A stretch of 64,000 nucleotides of DNA from NCBI RefSeq assembly GCF_022539405.1, contig NZ_CP054394.1:808501-872500 (forward strand), written 5' to 3'. The notes beneath the pieces were generated by a model. It was not told where the DNA came from and did not search any database. It saw only the letters and a list, made by a program, of their open reading frames with translations. Position 1 is the stretch's first letter; each line of letters opens with the position of its first letter. A program made the translations under genes and the position numbers. Below, piece after piece: positions 39,228-50,229 of the stretch. This DNA is from Natranaerofaba carboxydovora. GTDB taxonomy: Bacteria > Bacillota > Natranaerobiia > Natranaerobiales > Natranaerofabaceae.

Positions 39228-40154
39228 ATGAAAAAGGAACTATTTAGAGAGTTAACAGATAATATTAAAAGTTCTTTTGAATATAATACCAATCTAAGAA
39301 ACCATACCACCTTGAAAATAGGAGGCCCGTGTAAATTATTTATAGAAGTCGAAAACGATAACGATTTAATAAAAGCTTTGAATTATTTTAGGGAAAAAAG
39401 TATTCCTTACTTTTTGATAGGTAATGGTTCTAACTTATTAGTGAGTGACGAGGGTTTTAATGGTGTTGTAATAAAATTGGGGAAAAAGTATGACTTTATT
39501 AGGTTTGAAAACAGAAAAAATGGTAAATGCTTAGTAAATGTTGGTGCATCCAAAACTTTCCCTACTTTAACTAGAGAATTATCAAAAGAAAGCATTAGTG
39601 GAATAGAATGGGGATGTATGATACCTGGCACTATGGGAGGAGCAGCTATTATGAATGCGGGTGCACATGGAGGAGAAATATCACATGTAGTTAGTAGGGT
39701 TGAAGGTGTTGATATAAATAGTGGTAAAAAAGTCGTTTTGACAGAAGATGACTTAAAATTTGAATATCGGGGTCTAAATACTGGAGAGAAAGAAGTAATA
39801 ATAACTTCGATATGTTTAACCTTAAACCAGGGTGACATTAAAAAAATCACAGAAAAGATAAAAAAATATCAAGAACAAAGAAAAAATAAGCAACCTACTT
39901 TACCAAATGCAGGAAGCGTATTTAAAAATCCTCCCGGTGATTATGCGGGCCGTCTTCTGGAGGAATGCGGTATGAAAGGTTATCAAATTGGTGAAGTTAA
40001 ATTTTCCGAAAAGCATGCTAATTTTATTGTTAACACCAATAATGGTAAAGCAAAAGATGCCTGGAAATTGATTGAAATAGCAAAAGAAAAAGTTAAAGAA
40101 CTTTATGGTATAAATTTAGCCCTAGAATTAAATGTGTTGGGTGAGATGAAATGA
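39228..40154 (+). CDS. murB: UDP-N-acetylenolpyruvoylglucosamine reductase
   Basis: MurB reduces enolpyruvyl-UDP-GlcNAc to UDP-MurNAc using FAD and NADPH. FAD-binding motifs IGNGSNLLVSDEGF and GIEWGCMIPGTMGGAAIMNAGAHGGEI are present, and PNAGSVFKNP holds the catalytic Ser. About 308 residues. ATG 39228 follows AAAAGGGG; the frame upstream crosses that site. murA overlaps its stop (ATGA). Confidence 0.95.
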   Translation: MKKELFRELTDNIKSSFEYNTNLRNHTTLKIGGPCKLFIEVENDNDLIKALNYFREKSIPYFLIGNGSNLLVSDEGFNGVVIKLGKKYDFIRFENRKNGKCLVNVGASKTFPTLTRELSKESISGIEWGCMIPGTMGGAAIMNAGAHGGEISHVVSRVEGVDINSGKKVVLTEDDLKFEYRGLNTGEKEVIITSICLTLNQGDIKKITEKIKKYQEQRKNKQPTLPNAGSVFKNPPGDYAGRLLEECGMKGYQIGEVKFSEKHANFIVNTNNGKAKDAWKLIEIAKEKVKELYGINLALELNVLGEMK

Positions 40155-41440
40155 TGAATGACAAACTGGTTATTTCAGGAAACAAGAAGTTAAATGGAAC
40201 GCTTAATGTACAGGGAGCAAAAAATTCTGCTCTACCTTTGATAGCTGCTGCTATAATGGCTGAAGATGAAGTAGAGCTTATAGATGTCCCAAAATTAAAA
40301 GATGTAACAACTATGCTTGAAATATTAAAAAGACTTGGATGTAAAGTTGTAGAACGCGGGAATGTTCTTTTGATTGATAACAGAACGTTAACCTCAGTTA
40401 CTGTGCCTGAGGATTTAATGAAAGAGATGAGGTCAAGTATTGTTCTTTTAGGGGCACTTTTGGCGAAAAAGAATAAAGCGATGGTGTCTTATCCCGGTGG
40501 GTGTGCTATTGGAGAAAGACCAATAGAACTTCATTTAATGAACTTTCAAAGATTAGGTTGTGAAGTAGAAGAAAAGGAAAATAAGATAATTGCAAAAGCC
40601 CCCCTAGGCCTTAAAGGAACTGATATTGAGTTAGATTATCCAAGTGTTGGAGCAACTGAAAATTTAATGATGTCATCGGTTTTTGCACAAGGCATAACTA
40701 ATATTATTAACCCGGCAAAAGAACCAGAGATTGTTGATTTGCAGAATTTCTTAAATGCAATGGGAGCAAAGATTGAAGGAGCAGGCACAAATAATATAAA
40801 AATAATTGGTGTTAATAGACTCAAAGGAACGAAACATAGGATTAATCCTGACAGAATAGTTGCTGGAACTTATATGATTGCCGGGGCAATTACGGGAGGT
40901 AACGTAACCCTCAAAAATGTTATTCCAGAACATGTAAGTTCCTTGACTGATAAACTTAGAGAAGCAGGTGTAAATATCATTGAAGGGGACAGGAGCTTAA
41001 CTATTATTGCGCCAGAAAAATTTAATAAAATAGAATTAATAAAGACTAGTCCATATCCTGGTTTTCCTACAGATTTACAGCCTCAAATACTTGCATTATG
41101 TACGGTTTTAAATGGCTCATCGTTAATTGTTGAAAATATATTTGAAAGCAGGTTTAGACATGTGGAAGAACTAAAAAAGATGGGCGCAGACATTATGTTA
41201 GGTGATGGGATTGCACTTGTTAGAGGCCCTACAAAGCTTACAGGCACAAAAATAAAAGCTTCCGATCTTAGAGCGGGTGCTTCACTGGTTATAGCAGCTC
41301 TAGGCGCAGAAGGTGTAAGTGTAGTAGAAGGATTAGAGCATATTGATAGAGGTTACGAACAGATTGAAAACCAGCTTAGAAGATTAGGAGCAAAAGTAGA
41401 AAGAGTTAAATGGTTTGAGGATAAATATGAAAACGCCTAA
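40151..41440 (+). CDS. murA: UDP-N-acetylglucosamine 1-carboxyvinyltransferase
   Basis: MurA makes the first committed precursor of peptidoglycan. GAKNSALPLIAAAIMA at the N terminus and YPGGCAIGERPIELH with the Cys that fosfomycin alkylates are clear, as is FPTDLQPQILAL. 429 residues. It overlaps the murB stop by four bases, which suggests coupled translation. A perfect palindrome covers its stop codon. Confidence 0.96.
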   Translation: MMNDKLVISGNKKLNGTLNVQGAKNSALPLIAAAIMAEDEVELIDVPKLKDVTTMLEILKRLGCKVVERGNVLLIDNRTLTSVTVPEDLMKEMRSSIVLLGALLAKKNKAMVSYPGGCAIGERPIELHLMNFQRLGCEVEEKENKIIAKAPLGLKGTDIELDYPSVGATENLMMSSVFAQGITNIINPAKEPEIVDLQNFLNAMGAKIEGAGTNNIKIIGVNRLKGTKHRINPDRIVAGTYMIAGAITGGNVTLKNVIPEHVSSLTDKLREAGVNIIEGDRSLTIIAPEKFNKIELIKTSPYPGFPTDLQPQILALCTVLNGSSLIVENIFESRFRHVEELKKMGADIMLGDGIALVRGPTKLTGTKIKASDLRAGASLVIAALGAEGVSVVEGLEHIDRGYEQIENQLRRLGAKVERVKWFEDKYENA

Positions 41441-41455
41441 TTAGGCGTTTTCTTT
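41429..41455. terminator. 24-bp perfect palindrome over the murA stop codon
   Basis: GAAAACGCCTAA is followed directly by its complement TTAGGCGTTTTC (41429-41452), then TTT. The TAA of murA lies in the left arm. It looks like a terminator or attenuator placed inside the dcw operon just before ftsQ; the T run is short, so read-through is likely. Confidence 0.6.
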
Positions 41456-41466
41456 GGAGGGTTAAA

Positions 41467-42312
41467 ATGGACAAGCAGGTTGTAAAATTAAAGAACAAAA
41501 GAAGTAAAAAAATAGGCGAATCAAACAAAAATCACAAATTTAAAATCAAAAAAATAAGAATTTGGGTCCTTTTACTGCTTTGTCTAGGTCTTTTTACCCT
41601 TGTTTTTATGTCGAATTCTAGGTATTTTGAGATTAAAAATGTTAAAATTTCTGGAAATGAAAAAGTTAGCTCAGAAAGATTAATTAATGATATGGAATTA
41701 AAAGGCGAAAACATACTTTTTTTTGGTGAAAAAACCACTGAAGAGAGGATTTTAGAAAACAAATGGATTAAAAAAGTCGAAATTAATACTATCTTGCCAA
41801 ATAAAGTAGAAGTTGATATTGCTGAAAGGACTCCTATTGCTGTTTATGAAATAGAAGATAGTGATAAGTTAGTTTTGTCGAGTGATCTAGTTATACTTGA
41901 CGAATATGCCAGTAGAGAAGGGCTCCCTATAATTAATGGAATCAACTTGGATGCTGTGGTTGAATCATATGAACCAGGAGATTCTCTAAAGAAATTAACA
42001 TCAAAAGATGAAGAAATAGAAGTGTTGTCTAACGTTTTGGATAAACTAACATCATCTACATCTGTATTTATTAGTGAGATTGTGATAGTATCAGACAGTG
42101 AAATAAATTTATTTACAGAAAAAGGTTTAAAAGTAAAAATGGGCAAACCCGAAGAATTGGAGACAAAATATGCTCTTATAGAGAAAATTATACCTGAAGT
42201 AGAAGAAAAAAAAGGTCAACAAAATTTTAGGCATTTGGACCTAAGAGTTCCCAAATATCCTGTTCTTAAAGAATTAGATGAAAACAATAGTAGGAAAGAA
42301 GAGGAAAATTAG
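41467..42312 (+). CDS. ftsQ: Cell division protein FtsQ/DivIB
   Basis: A bitopic division protein that joins FtsL and FtsB/DivIC at the septum. A basic cytoplasmic N terminus is followed by one membrane segment (about residues 36-53: WVLLLLCLGLFTLVFM) and a POTRA domain starting FEIKNVKISGNEKVSSERL. A beta domain and a charged tail follow. 281 residues. ATG 41467 behind TGGAGGG. Confidence 0.9.
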   Translation: MDKQVVKLKNKRSKKIGESNKNHKFKIKKIRIWVLLLLCLGLFTLVFMSNSRYFEIKNVKISGNEKVSSERLINDMELKGENILFFGEKTTEERILENKWIKKVEINTILPNKVEVDIAERTPIAVYEIEDSDKLVLSSDLVILDEYASREGLPIINGINLDAVVESYEPGDSLKKLTSKDEEIEVLSNVLDKLTSSTSVFISEIVIVSDSEINLFTEKGLKVKMGKPEELETKYALIEKIIPEVEEKKGQQNFRHLDLRVPKYPVLKELDENNSRKEEEN

Positions 42313-42364
42313 TAATCAATGTTGAAATTATATAAGGGTCTTTTTATATCAGGAGGTGCTGTGA

Positions 42365-43585
42365 TTGACTAGAAAATCCTTGATAACAAGCTTAGATGTT
42401 GGGACAACCTATGTTAGGGCTATTATAGGAGAAGAAAGATCTCCTAATGAAATAAACATAATTGGAATCGGTACTTCGCCTTCTAAAGGAATGAAAGAAG
42501 GAGGCATAATAGATTTAGAGAAAACAATAGAAGCAATAGAGCATGCTGTTGAACAAGCTGAAAGGATGTCAGGAGTAGAAGTTCATGAAGTTTTTGTTAA
42601 CGTTGTGGCATCACATGTGAACTTGATAAATAATAAAGGTGTTGTAGCAGTTAACAATGAAGATAGAGAAATAACAGCAGAAGATGTAGAAAGGGTTACT
42701 CAGGCTGCAAAAGTCGTTAACCTTCCTCCTGATAAAGAAATTATTGATGTTATACCCCATCAATTTATTGTAGATGGATATGATGGGATTAAAGATCCGG
42801 TAGGAATGTTAGGAGTAAGGCTAGAAGTAGATGCACTAATTGTTGCTGGTAAGAGCACTACAATACATAACTTGTTAAGATGCGTTCAAAGGGCAGGTCT
42901 TGAAGTCAATGATCTTATTTTAAGTATCATGGCTAATGCTGAGACTTTGTTATCTGAAGAAGAGAGGAAGCTTGGTGTTGGCATTATTGATATAGGTGGG
43001 GGCACAGTAGAGATTGGTATTTTTAAAGATGGTTTTATGGAATGTCTTGATAGTATTAATATAGGTGGAGATTACATAACTAATGACCTTGCTGTTGGGC
43101 TTAAGATTTCTCAAGATGAAGCGGAAAAGTTAAAAATTAAATTTGGTGTAGCAAGCCCTGAATTGGCCGAGGATGGTTCTGTGGAGATTTTTAGTATAGG
43201 AGATAAAGAACCTAGACAAGTTAGCATAGAAGAGGTTGGGTCGATAATTGAGCCAAGAATCAGGGAAATTTTTGATTTTATTAATTCACGTCTTGATGAG
43301 TATGGTTATAGGGAAAAACTGGCTGCCGGTATTGTAATTACTGGTGGTGTCACAGAGTTAAAAGGCTTACAAGAGATAGCAGAACAGGAACTTGATGCTA
43401 ATGTAAGAATAGTGAAACCAAGGTTATTAGGTGTTAATAATCCAATTTATTCAACAGGTGTTGGAATGATACAATATGTAGTAAATAACAACTATGAAAG
43501 CGAATATTACGAAGAAGCAAGCAGTGGTAATGTATCTGGTTTATTTAATAGGATTAAAAATTGGTTCTTAGACTTTTTTGAATAG
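42365..43585 (+). CDS. ftsA: Cell division protein FtsA
   Basis: An actin-like ATPase that anchors FtsZ to the membrane. ITSLDVGTTYVRAIIGE opens the fold; GVGIIDIGGGTVEIGIF and GIVITGGVTELKGLQEIA are further nucleotide motifs. The C-terminal helix (GLFNRIKNWFLDFFE) is the amphipathic membrane anchor. 406 residues. It starts at TTG 42365 behind AGGAGGTG; ftsZ follows. Confidence 0.96.
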   Translation: MTRKSLITSLDVGTTYVRAIIGEERSPNEINIIGIGTSPSKGMKEGGIIDLEKTIEAIEHAVEQAERMSGVEVHEVFVNVVASHVNLINNKGVVAVNNEDREITAEDVERVTQAAKVVNLPPDKEIIDVIPHQFIVDGYDGIKDPVGMLGVRLEVDALIVAGKSTTIHNLLRCVQRAGLEVNDLILSIMANAETLLSEEERKLGVGIIDIGGGTVEIGIFKDGFMECLDSINIGGDYITNDLAVGLKISQDEAEKLKIKFGVASPELAEDGSVEIFSIGDKEPRQVSIEEVGSIIEPRIREIFDFINSRLDEYGYREKLAAGIVITGGVTELKGLQEIAEQELDANVRIVKPRLLGVNNPIYSTGVGMIQYVVNNNYESEYYEEASSGNVSGLFNRIKNWFLDFFE

Positions 43586-43626
43586 GCGTAGGAAAATAGG
43601 GTTAGCAAAAAGGAGGTATATTAGTG

Positions 43627-44727
43627 ATGTTGGAATTTGATCTTAATTCCGAACAGGTGGCACATATTAAAGTTGTTGGTGTTGGTGGTGGTGGTAGTAA
43701 TGCCGTTAATGGGATGATTGATTCAGGTCTTAAGGGTGTTGAATTCATAGCTGTTAATACAGATGCACAAGCGCTGAATACATCTAGGGCAAATGTTAAA
43801 ATACAGTTAGGTCAAAAACTAACTAAAGGTTTAGGTGCTGGTGCCGATCCCGAAATAGGGAAAAAAGCAGGCGAAGAAAGTAGAGAAGAAATACAGGAAA
43901 ATTTAAAAGGTGCCGATATGATATTTGTGACTGCTGGTATGGGTGGTGGTACTGGTACAGGTGCTGCCCCTGTAATGGCGGAAATGGCCAGGGAAGTTGG
44001 TGCTTTGACAGTAGGAGTTTGCACTAAACCATTTACTTTTGAAGGTAGAAAGAGAAAAAAGCAGGCTGAAGAAGGGATACAAGCTTTGAAGGAAAAAGTA
44101 GACTCGCTTATAGTTATCCCTAATGATAATTTGCTTCAAGTGGTAGAAAAGAACACTTCGATTACTGAAGCTTTTAAGGTGGCAGATGAAGTGTTAAGGC
44201 AAGGTGTACAGGGGATTTCGGACTTAATAGCTGTTCCTGGACTTATTAACCTGGATTTTGCAGACGTTAAAACGATCATGAATAACACAGGTACAGCCTT
44301 GATGGGGATAGGTAGAAGTAGTGGAGAAAGTCGTGCTGTTGAAGCAGCAAGGGAAGCCATAATGAGTCCTTTGTTAGAAACAAGTATAGATGGTGCAAAA
44401 GGTGTGCTGCTTAATATTACAGGAGGCTCGAACCTTGGACTTCATGAAGCAAATGAAGCGGCAGATATTATAGCTGAATCTGCAGATGAAGATGCTAACA
44501 TAATCTTTGGGGCAGTGATTAATGAGGATATGGGAGATGACGAAGTTAAAGTCACCGTTATAGCTACAGGCTTTGATGAAAAAAAAGAGGGTGAAAAATA
44601 TAATATGAATACACAAAATAACAATAGGTTAGATGATAATAGATCAGGTGATCTTGCGGATAAGTCGTTTGTTGGCGAAGATATTAATATTCCTGCCTTT
44701 TTGAGGCGCAAAAAGAAAAATGACTAA
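43627..44727 (+). CDS. ftsZ: Cell division protein FtsZ
   Basis: The tubulin-like GTPase of the division ring. [14 protein letters not shown], the tubulin signature [15 protein letters not shown], and the T7 region [15 protein letters not shown] are present. The C-terminal peptide [11 protein letters not shown] would bind FtsA and SepF. About 366 residues. ATG 43627 is set by AGGAGGT ahead of it; GTG 43624 is next to it. An inverted 223-bp repeat follows 8 bp after the stop. Confidence 0.97.
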
Positions 44728-44735
44728 CTAAACAT

Positions 44736-44958
44736 TGATTCTGGTGTAAAAAGTCTATTCACATAAATAAAATGTTTTTAATTGATACATCTAAGATTCG
44801 TCAGCAGTCGAAATAAGGCTACCTAACCCAAGAACTCATCGTGAGTCAGATTAGCTAATGACATCCTGTCATTAGACCTTATTTCTCCAGCTTCCTCATC
44901 AAGATGTATTGCAATTAAAAACAAAACTTTGCTCATATGACTTTTTGCACCAGAATCA
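44736..44958. repeat. 223-bp MITE-like palindromic element, copy 3 (inverted)
   Basis: Same length as the copies at 15111 and 23480 but in the opposite orientation. Ends TGATTCTGGTGTAAAAAGTC and GACTTTTTGCACCAGAATCA. ACAT flanks it on both sides (44732-44735 and 44959-44962). Read on the minus strand, the P2 arm CTAATGACA/TGTCATTAG is identical to copy 1, and P3 keeps CTAATC with GGTTAG, a pairing kept through a G-T change. The 456-bp gap between ftsZ and spoIIGA holds this element, a terminator and the spoIIG promoter. Confidence 0.9.
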
Positions 44959-44983
44959 ACATATTTCATATGACTATTGGTTA

Positions 44984-45020
44984 AGATGGCGCTTGTTTTA
45001 GAAGTGTCATCTTTTCTTTA
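44984..45020 (+). terminator. Terminator of the dcw operon
   Basis: AGATGGC-GCTT and AAGT-GTCATCT pair imperfectly around a short loop and are followed by TTTTCTTTATTTTT. It closes the transcription unit ending with ftsZ. Confidence 0.6.
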
Positions 45021-45047
45021 TTTTTGCATATTTTTTAAAATAATTGT

Positions 45048-45100
45048 TTTCGAAGTTAAGTGAGAAAGTGACAAATTTCTTAAGTTTAACTTGGTATACT
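45048..45100 (+). promoter_or_regulatory. Putative Spo0A-dependent spoIIG promoter with a long spacer
   Basis: GTGACA (45068-45073) and TATACT (45095-45100) are 21 bp apart, too far for an ordinary sigma-A promoter. The B. subtilis spoIIG promoter is known for a 22-bp spacer and activation by Spo0A bound over the -35. Here TGACAAA (45069-45075) overlaps the -35 and matches the 0A box TGNCGAA in six of seven positions. A partial box occurs near 45048 (TTCGAAG). Confidence 0.6.
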
Positions 45101-45183
45101 TTGCATAAGTTGTTTATTAGAGGCATATTCATACGGTGGCAGAGTTTGTCTAGGGGGCTAGCTCTAAGGAGGCAGGCAAAATT

Positions 45184-46044
45184 GTGTATGTTGTGGCTGA
45201 ATTTTTAATATTAATTAACTTCTTAATGAATGCTTTTATTATTTGGTTAACAGCCAAGGTTTTAAGCTATAGGTTATACAAACATAGATGGCTAATAGGT
45301 GCATTTATATCATCTTGGTATTTTATTTTGCCTTTTCAAAATAGTGTGTATGAGGCTCTATTTAAGATACTTTTTTCCTGGATTATAGTTATGCTGGTTT
45401 TTTTTCCGAAAAAAATAAAAGAGAGTATAGTAGCTCTTATGGTCTTTTATGGTATGTCTTTTTTTATTGGAGGAGGACTATTTGGAACAATCTTTTTATT
45501 CAACTCTTTAGATAATTTAGCTATTGGTAAAGTATCTTGGATGTATTTAATTTTATCAATAGTTATTGGGGGAGGTTTTTTATGGGGGATTAAAACCGTT
45601 GAAAAGAAAATAAGATGTAAAAACTATGAGGCGATCGTTGAAATACAGTTAAATAATAATAGCTCTTCGTTAAAAGTACTGGTGGATAGTGGGAATTTAT
45701 TAAAAACTTCAACTGGAACTCCATGTTGTGTGGTTGAAGGTGAAGCAGTAAAAAAAATACTTCCTTATGATCTTACAAACATAATATTTGAGGAAGATGA
45801 TATTTTTGATATTTATGACAGAATAGACCCCAGGCTTTTGAAACAATTAAAATTACAACCAGTATTTTTTAATACAGTAGGTAACGCAAAAGAAGCTTTA
45901 ATTGCTATGAGACCAGATAAAGTTTTAATTGGTGAATTGAATAGTGAGTCATTAAAAGAAGTAGATATGATGATTGCAATATCTAAAAGAAAATTAAATT
46001 TGCCAGAAGGTTATAACGGCTTGCTGCCTCCTGGGCTAGTTTGA
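45184..46044 (+). CDS. spoIIGA: Sporulation sigma-E factor-processing peptidase SpoIIGA
   Basis: A membrane aspartic protease that cuts the pro-sequence off sigma-E in the mother cell. Five hydrophobic segments fill the N-terminal 140 residues. The cytoplasmic half has VLVDSGNLLKTSTGTPC with the catalytic Asp in DSGN. 286 residues. GTG 45184 follows AAGGAGG. The sigE gene lies next to it, as in all spoIIG operons. Confidence 0.94.
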   Translation: MYVVAEFLILINFLMNAFIIWLTAKVLSYRLYKHRWLIGAFISSWYFILPFQNSVYEALFKILFSWIIVMLVFFPKKIKESIVALMVFYGMSFFIGGGLFGTIFLFNSLDNLAIGKVSWMYLILSIVIGGGFLWGIKTVEKKIRCKNYEAIVEIQLNNNSSSLKVLVDSGNLLKTSTGTPCCVVEGEAVKKILPYDLTNIIFEEDDIFDIYDRIDPRLLKQLKLQPVFFNTVGNAKEALIAMRPDKVLIGELNSESLKEVDMMIAISKRKLNLPEGYNGLLPPGLV

Positions 46045-46076
46045 GTTAGTAGTTATCAAAAAATAGGAGGGATTAT

Positions 46077-46808
46077 TTGATTAAGTCATGGTATAAAAGT
46101 AAGCTAGCTATAAGGATTTTTGTTATGAAGCTCCTGGAAAAACTAGGGGTGAAAGTTGATCCAGTACATTATATTGGTAGTAGCGAAGCTTTACCACCGC
46201 CACTTACAAAAGAAGAAGAAACCGAAATTTTGGAAAAGCTTAAAAATGGTGATACACACGTTAAAAGTGAGTTAATAGAACGAAATCTTAGATTAGTAGT
46301 ATATATAGCAAGAAAATTTGAAAATACAGGGATAAACATAGAAGATTTGATATCAATTGGCACAATAGGACTAATAAAAGCGGTTAATACATTCAAACCT
46401 CAAAAAAATATTAAGTTAGCCACGTATGCTTCAAAATGTATTGAAAATGAAATATTGATGTATTTAAGAAGAAATAATAAAGTGCGTCATGAAGTATCTT
46501 TAGATGAACCATTAAATGTTGATTGGGATGGCAATGAACTATTACTTTCAGATGTTCTTGGAACTGATAATGATATTATTCATAAAAGACTTGAAAAAGA
46601 AGTCAACAAAAGTTTGTTAAGTCAGGCTATGAAAAAGCTCTCAGATAGAGAAAAAGAGATAATGAGGCTTAGGTTTGGGCTTGGAAGTGGGAAAAGTAAA
46701 ACACAAAAAGAAGTGGCAGATTTACTTGGAATTTCTCAATCTTATATTTCGAGACTAGAAAAAAGAATAATAAGGAGGATGCAAAAGGAGATCAAAAAAA
46801 TGGAATAG
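46077..46808 (+). CDS. sigE: RNA polymerase sporulation sigma factor sigma-E (pro-form)
   Basis: The early mother-cell sigma factor. An amphipathic pro-sequence of about 30 residues precedes [18 protein letters not shown], the region around the processing site. Region 2 has [37 protein letters not shown]; region 4 ends with [19 protein letters not shown]. 243 residues, with near identity to other SigE proteins in region 2. It starts at TTG 46077 behind AGGAGGGA. Confidence 0.97.
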
Positions 46809-46837
46809 ATTTACAAAGAACGAGCTTTTTTATAAAA

Positions 46838-46866
46838 GTATAAAAACAGGTAGCTTGGAGATACTT
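46838..46866 (+). promoter_or_regulatory. Possible sigma-F/sigma-G-type promoter of sigG
   Basis: GTATA (46838-46842) resembles the -35, and GGAGATACTT (46857-46866) fits the GGNNANANTN form of forespore -10 elements. The spacer is 14 bp, one or two shorter than usual. sigG is forespore-expressed in Bacillus, which fits. Confidence 0.45.
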
Positions 46867-46901
46867 AATATAACAAAATAGTCTTTCAGGGGGCATAGTT
46901 A

Positions 46902-47678
46902 ATGACAGCAAATAAAGTTGAGATTTGCGGTGTTAATACATCCAAGTTGCCTGTTCTATCTAGCGAAGAGATGACAGAACTGTTTAAGCGATTAAGAGAT
47001 GGGGATGAATCGGCAAGAAGAGAGTTGATAAATGGTAACTTAAGGCTTGTTTTAAGCGTTATTCAAAGGTTTAATAATCGAGGAGAATATGTCGATGATT
47101 TATTTCAAATTGGATGTGTTGGACTAATTAAAGCCATAGATAATTTTGATTTAAATCAGAATGTCAAATTTTCTACTTATGCTGTCCCTATGATAATAGG
47201 TGAAATTAGAAGGTATTTACGAGATAATAATCCTATAAGAGTTAGTAGATCTTTAAGGGATATTGCTTATAAAGCATTACAGGTAAGAGATGAGTTGGTA
47301 GATAAGAATTCTAAGGAACCAACCCTTCAAGAAATTGCAAACAAACTTGATATTAGTAGGGAACAAATAGTCTTTGCCTTAGATGCGATACAAGAACCAA
47401 TCTCTCTTTTTGAGCCTATATACCATGATGGAGGAGATCCAATATTTGTTATGGATCAGATAAGTGATGAAAAGAACCAAGATAAAAATTGGCTTGAGGA
47501 TATTGCAATTAAGGAGGCCCTCCAAAAATTAGACCCAAGAGAAAAAATGATATTAACTATGAGATTTTTTAAAGGGAAAACACAGATGGAAGTGGCAGAA
47601 GAAATTAATATAAGTCAGGCCCAAGTATCTAGACTAGAAAAAGGGGCTTTAAAACAGTTAGAACAAAATGTCAAATAG
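46902..47678 (+). CDS. sigG: RNA polymerase sporulation sigma factor sigma-G
   Basis: The late forespore sigma factor. NKVEICGVNTSKLPVLS at the N terminus is the SigG signature. NLRLVLSVIQRFNNRGEYVDDLFQIGCVGLIKAIDNFDL is region 2, RYLRDNNPIRVSRSLRDIAYKALQVRD region 3, and INISQAQVSRLEKGALKQL region 4.2. 258 residues. It follows sigE with a 93-bp gap that holds its own promoter, and is closed by a terminator. Confidence 0.97.
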   Translation: MTANKVEICGVNTSKLPVLSSEEMTELFKRLRDGDESARRELINGNLRLVLSVIQRFNNRGEYVDDLFQIGCVGLIKAIDNFDLNQNVKFSTYAVPMIIGEIRRYLRDNNPIRVSRSLRDIAYKALQVRDELVDKNSKEPTLQEIANKLDISREQIVFALDAIQEPISLFEPIYHDGGDPIFVMDQISDEKNQDKNWLEDIAIKEALQKLDPREKMILTMRFFKGKTQMEVAEEINISQAQVSRLEKGALKQLEQNVK

Positions 47679-47691
47679 AATTGAATTTATA

Positions 47692-47719
47692 TTCCCAGGC
47701 TGTCTGGGAATTTTTTTAT
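47692..47719 (+). terminator. Terminator after sigG
   Basis: TTCCCAG, a GCTGT loop, CTGGGAA and seven T. A clear Rho-independent terminator that ends the spoIIG-sigG block. Confidence 0.88.
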
Positions 47720-47765
47720 TCAGTTTTTAAAAAAAGAAGCATAGGATAACTTAGGAGGGGTTATC

Positions 47766-48017
47766 TTGATTACTTCATCAGAATTAAAAAAAAGAGAGGT
47801 TATTAATATCCAGGATGGTAAAAGGCTTGGGTTTGTCCAGGATTTTGACATTGATCTATACCATGGAGAAATCAGAGCCTTGATTGTACCTGGGCCTAAT
47901 AAATTACTAGGATTTTTTGGTAAAGATAAAGACTATATAATAAAATGGGACGATATAGTAAAAATAGGAAGCGATGTTATATTAGTAGACCTAGTCATAA
48001 CGGGTGAAAGAAATTAA
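47766..48017 (+). CDS. YlmC/YmxH family PRC-barrel protein
   Basis: An 83-residue protein with a PRC-barrel fold (SSELKKREVINIQDGKRLGFVQDFDID, and IIKWDDIVKIGSDVILVD). The family is tied to sporulation and is almost always next to sigG or pgeF. The molecular role is not known. It starts at TTG 47766 behind TAGGAGGGG. pgeF follows. Confidence 0.9.
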   Translation: MITSSELKKREVINIQDGKRLGFVQDFDIDLYHGEIRALIVPGPNKLLGFFGKDKDYIIKWDDIVKIGSDVILVDLVITGERN

Positions 48018-48089
48018 TTAAGTTGTACTTTTAAAAATAAGTTGTTATTATATGATATAAGTTATAAAGTGTACAAGGAGGTAAGATCT

Positions 48090-48899
48090 ATTAAACTTAA
48101 ACTACGAGAAGGCAAAAATAAAAGTGTCTATTTAACCGATCCAGGTTTTTTTGGTGATGATGTAATAATGGCTTTTTCAACAAGATTTGGAGGGCATAGC
48201 TTATCTCCTTATAATAGCTTGAACCTTAGTTATCTTTCTGGAGATGAATATAAGAATGTTTTAAAGAATAGGATTAGCTTTTTAGAGGCACTTAATATAG
48301 ATGTTTTTGCGGGAGTACTTGCAGGACAGGTTCACGGTGATAGGATAGAATTCGTAAAGGAAAAGATTAGTGAATTTGGGATACTGCTTCCTGGTGTTAG
48401 TGTCGAAAATACAGATGGATTGATAACAACTTCTAAGAATTTACCTTTGGTAGGAACTTTTGCAGATTGTGTTCCGCTGTTTTTCTATGATAATGTAAAA
48501 AAAGTGGTTGCAATAAGTCATGCTGGTTGGAGGGGTACTAAAGAAAATATTGCAAAAAAAACCATAGATAATATAATAAAAGAAACCGGAGGAAAAGTTA
48601 GCGACATAAAAGTAATAATTGGACCATCAATAGGAAGTTGTTGTTATGAAGTGGGAGCAGAACTTCATGATGCTTTTAAAGATTATTCTTTTTATGAAAA
48701 TATCTGTAGGGTGAAAAACCAGAGACTATATCTTGATCTGTGGCTAGCTAATAGTATTCAACTAGAACAGGCAGGAGTGTTAAGTGAAAATATTCTAGTT
48801 AGTGAAATATGTACACATTGTAATAATGATTTTTTCTTTTCTTATAGAAAAGAAAAAGGGAATACTGGCAGAATGATGGGTCTTATTAAAATTATATAA
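48090..48899 (+). CDS. pgeF: Purine nucleoside phosphorylase / laccase-domain protein (YlmD, PgeF-like)
   Basis: Members hydrolyse or phosphorolyse purine nucleosides and help peptidoglycan editing. Metal motifs are QVHGDRIEF, FADCVPLFFYD, ISHAGWRGTKENI and CTHCNNDFFFSYRKEKG. A perfect AAGGAGGT lies at 48075-48082, and seven bases later the frame has ATT (48090), not ATG, GTG or TTG. The upstream candidates GTG 48069 and TTG 48042 have no ribosome site. The protein from ATT (about 269 residues) aligns with the usual YlmD N terminus, so a rare AUU start is proposed. Confidence 0.88.
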   Translation: MKLKLREGKNKSVYLTDPGFFGDDVIMAFSTRFGGHSLSPYNSLNLSYLSGDEYKNVLKNRISFLEALNIDVFAGVLAGQVHGDRIEFVKEKISEFGILLPGVSVENTDGLITTSKNLPLVGTFADCVPLFFYDNVKKVVAISHAGWRGTKENIAKKTIDNIIKETGGKVSDIKVIIGPSIGSCCYEVGAELHDAFKDYSFYENICRVKNQRLYLDLWLANSIQLEQAGVLSENILVSEICTHCNNDFFFSYRKEKGNTGRMMGLIKII

Positions 48900-48981
48900 T
48901 TTTGAGTATATTATTAAGGAAAATTAAGGAGGAAAATAGGGATCAAAAAAGAAATTGTAAAAGTGGATGGAGATGGGGTTT

Positions 48982-50229
48982 ATGAAAAAAAAGGAAAAAG
49001 ATACAACAAATAAGTATGGGACAAAAGTATATAATTTTTTTGAGAAAAAATGGGAAAAAGAAAGCTTTTCATTATTTCCTATTGCTGCTTTATTTATATT
49101 ATTATTGATGCTGGTGATCATTTTTTCTGGTCTTAGAGGATTTATTTTTCCAAGATTAGCTGATATAGAGATTATGGAAAAAGAAAGAGTGGAGTTTAAG
49201 GAAGAGTATAAAGGATTAATAGTTAGAGACGAAAGTGTAAGATATGCGCCTTTGTCGGGCAGAGCTGATAAATTAATAAAAGACGGCACTAGAGTTGCTA
49301 GAGGTGAGCCTGTTTTATCATACAATAATCAGGAGATGGGCAAAGAAGAAAGAGAGGATGATTATTTTGATTATAGTCTTACAGATGATAATAATAATTT
49401 GAAGAATAGCCTAGAATCAAAGCTTACTGAGATTGATACCAAAATTCAAGAACTTAGGCGAAACAAAATTAAAACAGGAGATCTTAAATCTGGTATTAGA
49501 AATGCATATGCAATTAAACAGGCTTACGATGATATAAATGACGAAGATACAGAAGAATCGGGGGATGCTAAAGAAGATGATACAAAAGAAGATGATACAA
49601 TAAAAAGCCCCAAACCTGGGATAGTAAGTTTTTTTTATGATGGTTATGAAAATATACTAAAACCCGAAAAAATATTAGATTTTTCGGTAGATGAGCTTGA
49701 AAGGTTTATTTCAAAAGAATATGAAGGGTTAAGTGAGTTGTCAGATGGAGAAATTATATTTAGTGGACAATCCCTTTTTAGAATTGTAGACAATTACACC
49801 TGGATAATGGTATTAGTAATGGATCAATCAGAATTAGAGAAAACTGTAGATGGAAAAAGTGTAGCGAAGTTTTCACTTAAAGAGGATGATGAATGGTATC
49901 ATGCTGGTATTATAGATTATAAATTTGAAAAAGATAAAGGGGCCTTATTCTTAGAAGTAAGAAGGGATTTAGGGGAATTTTGGAATGATCGTACAAAGGA
50001 TGTATCTATAGTAACTGAAACCAGGGAAGGTTTTGAAATACCTCCTCAGGCACTTGTAGAAAAAGATGGTGAAGAAGGCGTGTTTTTGGTAAAAAGAGGA
50101 ATAGTTCGCTTTTATCCGGTAGAGATTTTGTTTAGAAAAAATGATAAAATATATATTGAAGGCATTGAAGACGGGGATAACTTGATAAAAAACCCAAGGT
50201 TTATTGAAGATGGAGACAAAGTCAGATGA
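48982..50229 (+). CDS. HlyD-like membrane protein next to ylmE
   Basis: One membrane segment (about residues 25-45: LFPIAALFILLLMLVIIF) is followed by an outside part with two lipoyl-like halves (RYAPLSGRADKLIKDGTRVARGEPVLSY, and a later PGIVSFFYDGYENIL). Between them is an acidic coiled coil with a DDTKEDDT repeat near residue 205. This resembles membrane-fusion proteins, but no ABC or RND partner is nearby. Similar genes sit in front of ylmE in clostridia, suggesting a link to division or the cell envelope. ATG 48982 is preferred; ATG 48967 is possible. Confidence 0.8.
   Translation: MKKKEKDTTNKYGTKVYNFFEKKWEKESFSLFPIAALFILLLMLVIIFSGLRGFIFPRLADIEIMEKERVEFKEEYKGLIVRDESVRYAPLSGRADKLIKDGTRVARGEPVLSYNNQEMGKEEREDDYFDYSLTDDNNNLKNSLESKLTEIDTKIQELRRNKIKTGDLKSGIRNAYAIKQAYDDINDEDTEESGDAKEDDTKEDDTIKSPKPGIVSFFYDGYENILKPEKILDFSVDELERFISKEYEGLSELSDGEIIFSGQSLFRIVDNYTWIMVLVMDQSELEKTVDGKSVAKFSLKEDDEWYHAGIIDYKFEKDKGALFLEVRRDLGEFWNDRTKDVSIVTETREGFEIPPQALVEKDGEEGVFLVKRGIVRFYPVEILFRKNDKIYIEGIEDGDNLIKNPRFIEDGDKVR

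Follow-up and report, generated by a model that had tools for sequence, protein, structure and literature searches.

The sporulation locus of Natranaerofaba carboxydovora raises the question of how transcription of spoIIGA and sigE is switched on in this bacterium and how old that switch is; the spoIIG switch starts the mother-cell program of spore formation. In B. subtilis, the spoIIG promoter uses sigma-A and Spo0A~P and has a spacer of 22 bp between its -35 and -10 elements. The 0A boxes to which Spo0A~P binds there are weak, and the bound protein touches sigma-A; the claim that the long spacer makes Spo0A essential rests on work in B. subtilis. We analyzed a window, meaning the whole stretch of 64,000 nucleotides (35% GC), from the 3.26-Mb, single-contig genome of N. 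carboxydovora, for which the closest relatives in our comparison were two genomes of the same order. In this window, a candidate promoter lies directly upstream of spoIIGA-sigE (gene order spoIIGA-sigE-sigG), in the 456-bp interval between ftsZ and spoIIGA, and the locus has the following features.

43624-44727, coding strand: ftsZ, upstream of spoIIGA
44983-45013, plus strand: terminator-like hairpin, past ftsZ and ahead of the spoIIG promoter
45047-45054, plus strand: TTTTCGAA, a possible further 0A box, with a 6/7 match to TGTCGAA within it
45062-45063, minus strand: where the second half-site would lie, 10 bp farther upstream; GA in the window, degenerate
45067-45073, minus strand: weak 0A-like box TGTCACT over the -35
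45068-45073, plus strand: -35-like hexamer GTGACA, 5/6 to TTGACA
45074-45094, plus strand: 21-bp spacer between GTGACA and TATACT
45077-45078, plus strand: conserved TT at +4/+5 after the -35, within AATTTC
45095-45100, plus strand: -10 hexamer TATACT, 5/6 to TATAAT
45166-45172, plus strand: AAGGAGG, likely ribosome binding site of spoIIGA
45184-46044, plus strand: spoIIGA, pro-sigma-E processing peptidase, GTG start (TIGR02854, E value 2.8e-47)
46077-46808, plus strand: sigE (TIGR02835, 410.2 bits, over the cut-off)
46902-47678, plus strand: sigG (TIGR02850, 492.6 bits, over the cut-off)

The match of the SpoIIGA protein to the TIGR02854 profile is full-length and scores 161.5 bits, which is below the curated cut-off of 209.55. 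Among 41 genomes compared with this profile, 35 had a match and only 17 passed the cut-off, which suggests that automatic annotation may often miss SpoIIGA. An Rfam scan of positions 40000 to 50000 matched no family.

The initial annotation had described GTGACA and TATACT as lying 21 bp apart, and this is borne out by the positions listed above. It had also reported a 0A-like box covering the -35, and the minus strand does read TGTCACT there with its TGTC intact, but the box is weak, matching TGTCGAA at only four of seven positions. TATACT is separated by 83 bp from the GTG start of spoIIGA, and transcription is predicted to start near 45107, about 7 bp past this hexamer. The 0A-like word within TTTTCGAA begins at 45048, 20 bp before the -35. 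We considered TTTTCGAA as a kept upstream box and dropped it, as the offset of -20 was absent from the 12 best offsets in relatives.

The GTGACA-21-TATACT pair is not a product of chance; for the coding strand between ftsZ and spoIIGA (456 bp), an arithmetic estimate gives about 6e-4 chance sites with gap 21, and conservation is a stronger test than genome counts. On both strands of the 3.26-Mb genome, the pattern TGACA-N15..25-TATAMT occurred at 113 sites, compared to 71 for a reversed control. Among the 100 matches listed, 24 had gap 17, 14 had gap 22, and 8 had gap 21, and the prevalence of gap 17 indicates that ordinary promoters of this genome favor 17 bp. A 21-bp rule was rejected as a genome-wide finder of Spo0A targets, since gap 21 was not enriched among the listed sites (8 of 100). 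Addition of the TT to the pattern gave 40 sites genome-wide and 40 for the reversed control, with no excess; five of these 40 sites had gap 21, and two of the five are spoIIG and spoIIE. The 21-bp geometry marks particular promoters and on its own carries no genome-wide signal. One of the other three gap-21 sites of the TT-extended pattern reads GACAAATTTT...TATAAT (L271:1068-1098; C1:3229367-3229397 of this genome) and lies where an ECF-like sigma-factor open reading frame begins, after a lipoprotein-like one (both named by eye). It is doubtful as a promoter because the listed start of the reading frame overlaps the -10.

For the comparison with relatives, we used 181 regions upstream of spoIIGA, 101 from a set of genomes that includes the window and 80 from loci found through SigE. 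The 101-genome set, which is not random, consisted of the 35 that matched among 41 genomes (window included, 34 families), 26 further genomes that were the best scoring among the matches listed (341 of 398 genomes matched), and 40 picked from these listed matches, which favored the better scores, for family spread. The SigE-found set held the best 80 of 587 loci by SigE, mostly from Bacilli. At least one contig, of 194,357 bp, occurs in both sets (as L088 and as L154), so counts are given separately as well. When strict words were used (NNGACA, then at least five of six matches to TATAAT with A2 and T6, at spacings of 14 to 26 bp), we found a spacer of 21 bp in 106 and of 22 bp in 42 of the 181 regions, with 0 to 6 regions at each other spacing; the opposite strand and the spoIIGA coding sequence (330 bp) gave two or fewer at any spacing. 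We also scored the regions with a leave-one-out profile that had no spacing preference over 15 to 26 bp, from which look-alike sites were removed and for which the threshold was the 99% level of dinucleotide shuffles (905 shuffled sequences, five per region). This profile was seeded with spacers of 20 to 23 bp before the preference-free refinement; the strict-word count had no such seed. By this measure, 155 of the 181 regions were above the threshold, with 112 at 21 bp, 42 at 22 bp, and one at 16 bp. The corresponding values were 81 of 101 regions for the 101-genome set (69 at 21 bp and 12 at 22 bp) and 74 of 80 for the SigE-found set (43 at 21 bp, 30 at 22 bp, and the one at 16 bp), and the score of the window, 24.4 bits, was reached by none of the 905 shuffled sequences. 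The initial annotation had proposed an alignment of spoIIG promoters across clostridia; in the present comparison, all but one of the 155 regions with a hit have a long spacer. Within the SigE-found loci, the long-spacer promoter occurs in Bacillaceae, Paenibacillaceae, Thermoactinomycetaceae, Desulfallaceae, and Sporomusaceae, among others.

The remaining 26 of the 181 spoIIG regions scored below the profile threshold. Three families gave no profile hit in both of their examined members (f40, L030 and L117; f24, L034 and L111; f16, L035 and L119), and in at least four other misses (L037, L045, L047, and L048) spoIIGA appears by eye to lie close behind the apparent end of ftsZ. One contig titled "Deltaproteobacteria bacterium," from a metagenome-assembled genome (L208), has sigE together with a spoIIG promoter of the usual 21-bp type, suggesting that the genome bin is misnamed or mixed.

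The consensus of these promoters reads CA, then, 10 bp on, the CA of TTGACA, followed by three bases, TT, and finally TATA(A/C)T. In 157 aligned promoters, GACA is kept at 91 to 100% per base and the preceding T at 78%; the bases of the TT at +4/+5 are T in 88% and 93% of the aligned set, and the -10 form TATA(A/C)T is among the best-kept elements. The upstream CA, read on the coding strand, is present in 89% and 88% of relatives at its two positions and is replaced by GA in the window, and we regard it as a usual feature of these promoters that is not counted as defining. Read on the minus strand, GACA together with the upstream CA would fit tandem 0A half-sites with a 10-bp period, a period known for 0A half-sites from abrB. 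Over 154 promoters, the 0A box over the -35 matched TGTCGAA at three of seven positions in 6, four in 66, five in 44, and six in 38, so the four-of-seven score of the window is the commonest in the aligned set. The 0A core would have a C at a position where these promoters mostly have T, the base expected of a -35; the hexamer seems to reconcile both demands.

We examined the spoIIE promoter as well, using the upstream regions of 30 of the 56 genomes with a match. In the genome of the window, spoIIE is preceded by TAGACA-21-TATAAT (L127, C1:3070050-3070080), where GACTTT directly follows the hexamer and TGTCGAT precedes the -35 by 32 bp, and the spacer is also 21 bp in both genomes of the same order (L235 and L238). 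Among the 30 regions, the distance from NNGACA to the -10 was 21 bp in nine and 22 bp in two, with two or fewer regions at each other spacing, so that the strict words occurred in only 11 of the 30. In 10 of these 11 long-spacer promoters, a forward TGTC box lies 32 to 33 bp before the -35 (TGTCG in nine of them), and the spoIIG promoter of the window has no such box. If the -35 is ignored, TGTCG is found 59 to 61 bp before the -10 in 9 of the 30 regions and in one or none at each other distance printed.

Upstream boxes turn over among the spoIIG regions. Of the 181 regions, 23 have TGACA at a distance of 80 bp upstream of the -10, 5 of them in the 101-genome set and the rest in the SigE-found set, which makes this far-upstream reverse box mostly a feature of SigE-found loci. 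CGACA precedes the -10 by 60 bp in 12 regions, and forward TGTCG precedes a -10-like word by 59 to 61 bp in 11; for at least one of these 11 (L087), the word lies off the profile promoter. In the window, the TGACA (80 bp), CGACA (60 bp), and TGTCG (59 to 61 bp) boxes are absent at those positions.

We conclude that the spoIIG operon in the window very probably has a sigma-A promoter that is activated by Spo0A. The genome contains one Spo0A above the family cut-off (TIGR02875, 386.9 bits; open reading frame L274:248-1108, minus strand), the C-terminal domain of which aligns without gaps to chain 1lq1_A and is identical to it in the segment SRVERAIRHAIEVAW. With a good -10 and no -35 at 16 to 18 bp, polymerase carrying sigma-A should start poorly alone. 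The only -35-like hexamer is the one at 21 bp, which would double as a weak 0A box, and Spo0A~P placed over and just upstream of the -35 could touch sigma-A and so make the wide spacing usable. If so, spoIIGA and sigE would be turned on only at high Spo0A~P. By analogy with B. subtilis, Spo0A~P would bind at this promoter and contact sigma-A, and transcription would depend on Spo0A. The low match of the box over the -35 to the 0A core (four of seven) and the GA at the second half-site speak against this reading.

An ordinary sigma-A promoter, in which other hexamers at 16 to 18 bp are used and the 21-bp pair is coincidental, would be conceivable in AT-rich DNA, where promoter-like pairs are frequent; a scan of 1.4 kb on both strands gave 5 sites, compared to 6.8 in shuffles. 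However, all three plus-strand sites lie inside spoIIGA, and no pair with a 16- to 18-bp spacer reached the scan threshold on the plus strand between 44700 and 45183. With spacers of 16, 17, and 18 bp to the -10, the window offers 0, 1, and 1 of 6 matches to TTGACA, and the means for 154 promoters at these distances are 0.55, 1.13, and 1.01 of 6, lower than the value of about 1.6 predicted from base composition (arithmetic estimate), a shortfall that is due in part to the conserved TT block. Together with the presence of the 21/22-bp pair in most relatives, these data make an ordinary promoter very improbable. Transcription of the operon from a sigma-H promoter, as at spoIIA, with the sigma-A-like boxes idle, conflicts with the finding that the sigma-A form TATA(A/C)T is so well kept. 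In the available portion of one C. difficile study, other early sporulation genes are driven by sigma-H, but spoIIGA is assigned to sigma-A (PMC3789822), and we consider a sigma-H promoter here extremely unlikely.

It is also possible, though we think it unlikely, that the hexamer is a Spo0A site only, to which polymerase makes no -35 contact because Spo0A replaces the -35. Such an arrangement would be consistent with the distance of 21 to 22 bp between the hexamer and the -10, with a sequence at normal spacing that is unlike a -35, and with the fixed position of the spoIIE TGTC box relative to the hexamer. Against it, the C of the 0A core (TTCGACA) is a T in most of the 157 promoters, at the frequency given above, as TTGACA demands, which suggests selection for contact with sigma as well. 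The reading that we prefer remains that of a hexamer used by both Spo0A~P and sigma-A.

The spoIIE promoter, which uses sigma-A and Spo0A, has the 21/22-bp geometry in common with the spoIIG promoter of the window. We are somewhat inclined to the view that spoIIG and spoIIE form one promoter class, fixed in the common ancestor of the endospore-forming Bacillota. The core of this proposed class would be NNGACA, serving as -35 and 0A half-site alike, TT at +4/+5, a 21-bp spacer, and TATA(A/C)T; the spacer would occasionally be longer by a single base, and a -35 at the normal distance would be avoided. Since upstream 0A boxes turn over and the core is constant, the spacer itself would be the conserved regulatory device of the class. 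The geometry also offers a sequence test for spoIIG and spoIIE promoters in genomes of unculturable organisms that does not need a good match to the Spo0A consensus.

With regard to the history of the spacer, the initial annotation had suggested that the 22-bp length of B. subtilis is kept in the window. A long spacer is indeed kept, but it is 21 bp here, and 21 bp is the commoner length among relatives, with 22 bp recurring. We placed the two states on a SigE tree (FastTree, 180 rows) that is unrooted and has many weak forks; 1 of the 181 regions had no SigE row, and 27 of the 180 rows had no 21/22 state. At least 19 changes between the 21- and 22-bp states are needed on this tree. A single origin of the 22-bp spacer was rejected, as starred branches force at least six changes for the 22-bp label when rows with no hit are counted as not 22. 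In the SigE-found set, Paenibacillaceae have 21 bp in 14 of 14 loci, and Bacillaceae have 22 bp in 28, 21 bp in 17, and neither in 1; the 22-bp spacer is present in several further families. With the tree unrooted, the spread of the 21-bp spacer suggests that this may be the ancestral length. The proposal that the mechanism is ancient is supported by the spacing of 21 or 22 bp in 154 of the 155 profile hits from 181 regions, and the recurrence of this gap in most of the spore-forming relatives examined makes the switch look very old. The long-spacer geometry most likely dates from early endospore formers. If the spacer length has varied by no more than one base among spore formers, the long spacer is likely to be the original wiring of Spo0A to the sporulation cascade.

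The spoIIG promoter of B. subtilis and that of the window are alike in lying before spoIIGA-sigE and in having a -35 over a weak 0A box and a distant -10. Three Bacillus relatives in our set (L191, L211, and L054) read TTGACA-22-TATACT, compared to a spacer of 21 bp in the window. A 2025 paper cites earlier in vitro work according to which Spo0A~P exerts its effect once the closed complex has formed and does not act through the binding of polymerase (PMC12090719). In C. difficile, the accessible text of a study that mapped the spoIIGA promoter by RNA-seq describes a promoter for sigma-A, the boxes of which read GTGACA and TATAAT, and a 240-fold decrease of sigE in a spo0A mutant (PMC3789822). 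By that description, the two promoters share the -35 sequence GTGACA and differ at the -10, which is TATAAT in C. difficile and TATACT in the window. The excerpted results of another study report that the DNA-binding domain of C. difficile Spo0A binds weakly upstream of spoIIGA, with a shift only above 200 nM (PMC3485338), and for B. mycoides, the end of the spoIIGA RNA was mapped 97 bp before the ATG, according to the portion of the report at hand (PMC3762067). The promoter type is already known from B. subtilis, and a GTGACA/TATAAT promoter of spoIIGA has been published for C. difficile; what is new is the widespread geometry and its sharing with spoIIE. We found no published statement of a widespread 21/22-bp geometry, and an earlier one in the classical literature is possible.

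Between ftsZ and the spoIIG promoter, we also observed a palindromic element of about 225 bp (44735-44959) that resembles a MITE and has 21-nt terminal inverted repeats (TTGATTCTGGTGTAAAAAGTC) that are 95% complementary. It has no match in four other genomes (G001 to G004) and at least 40 long matches in its own genome, at 83 to 100% identity (40 of 235 first-look candidates were scored); 20 copies were aligned. As single-stranded DNA, the element folds far better than shuffled sequences, with a z score of -9.95.
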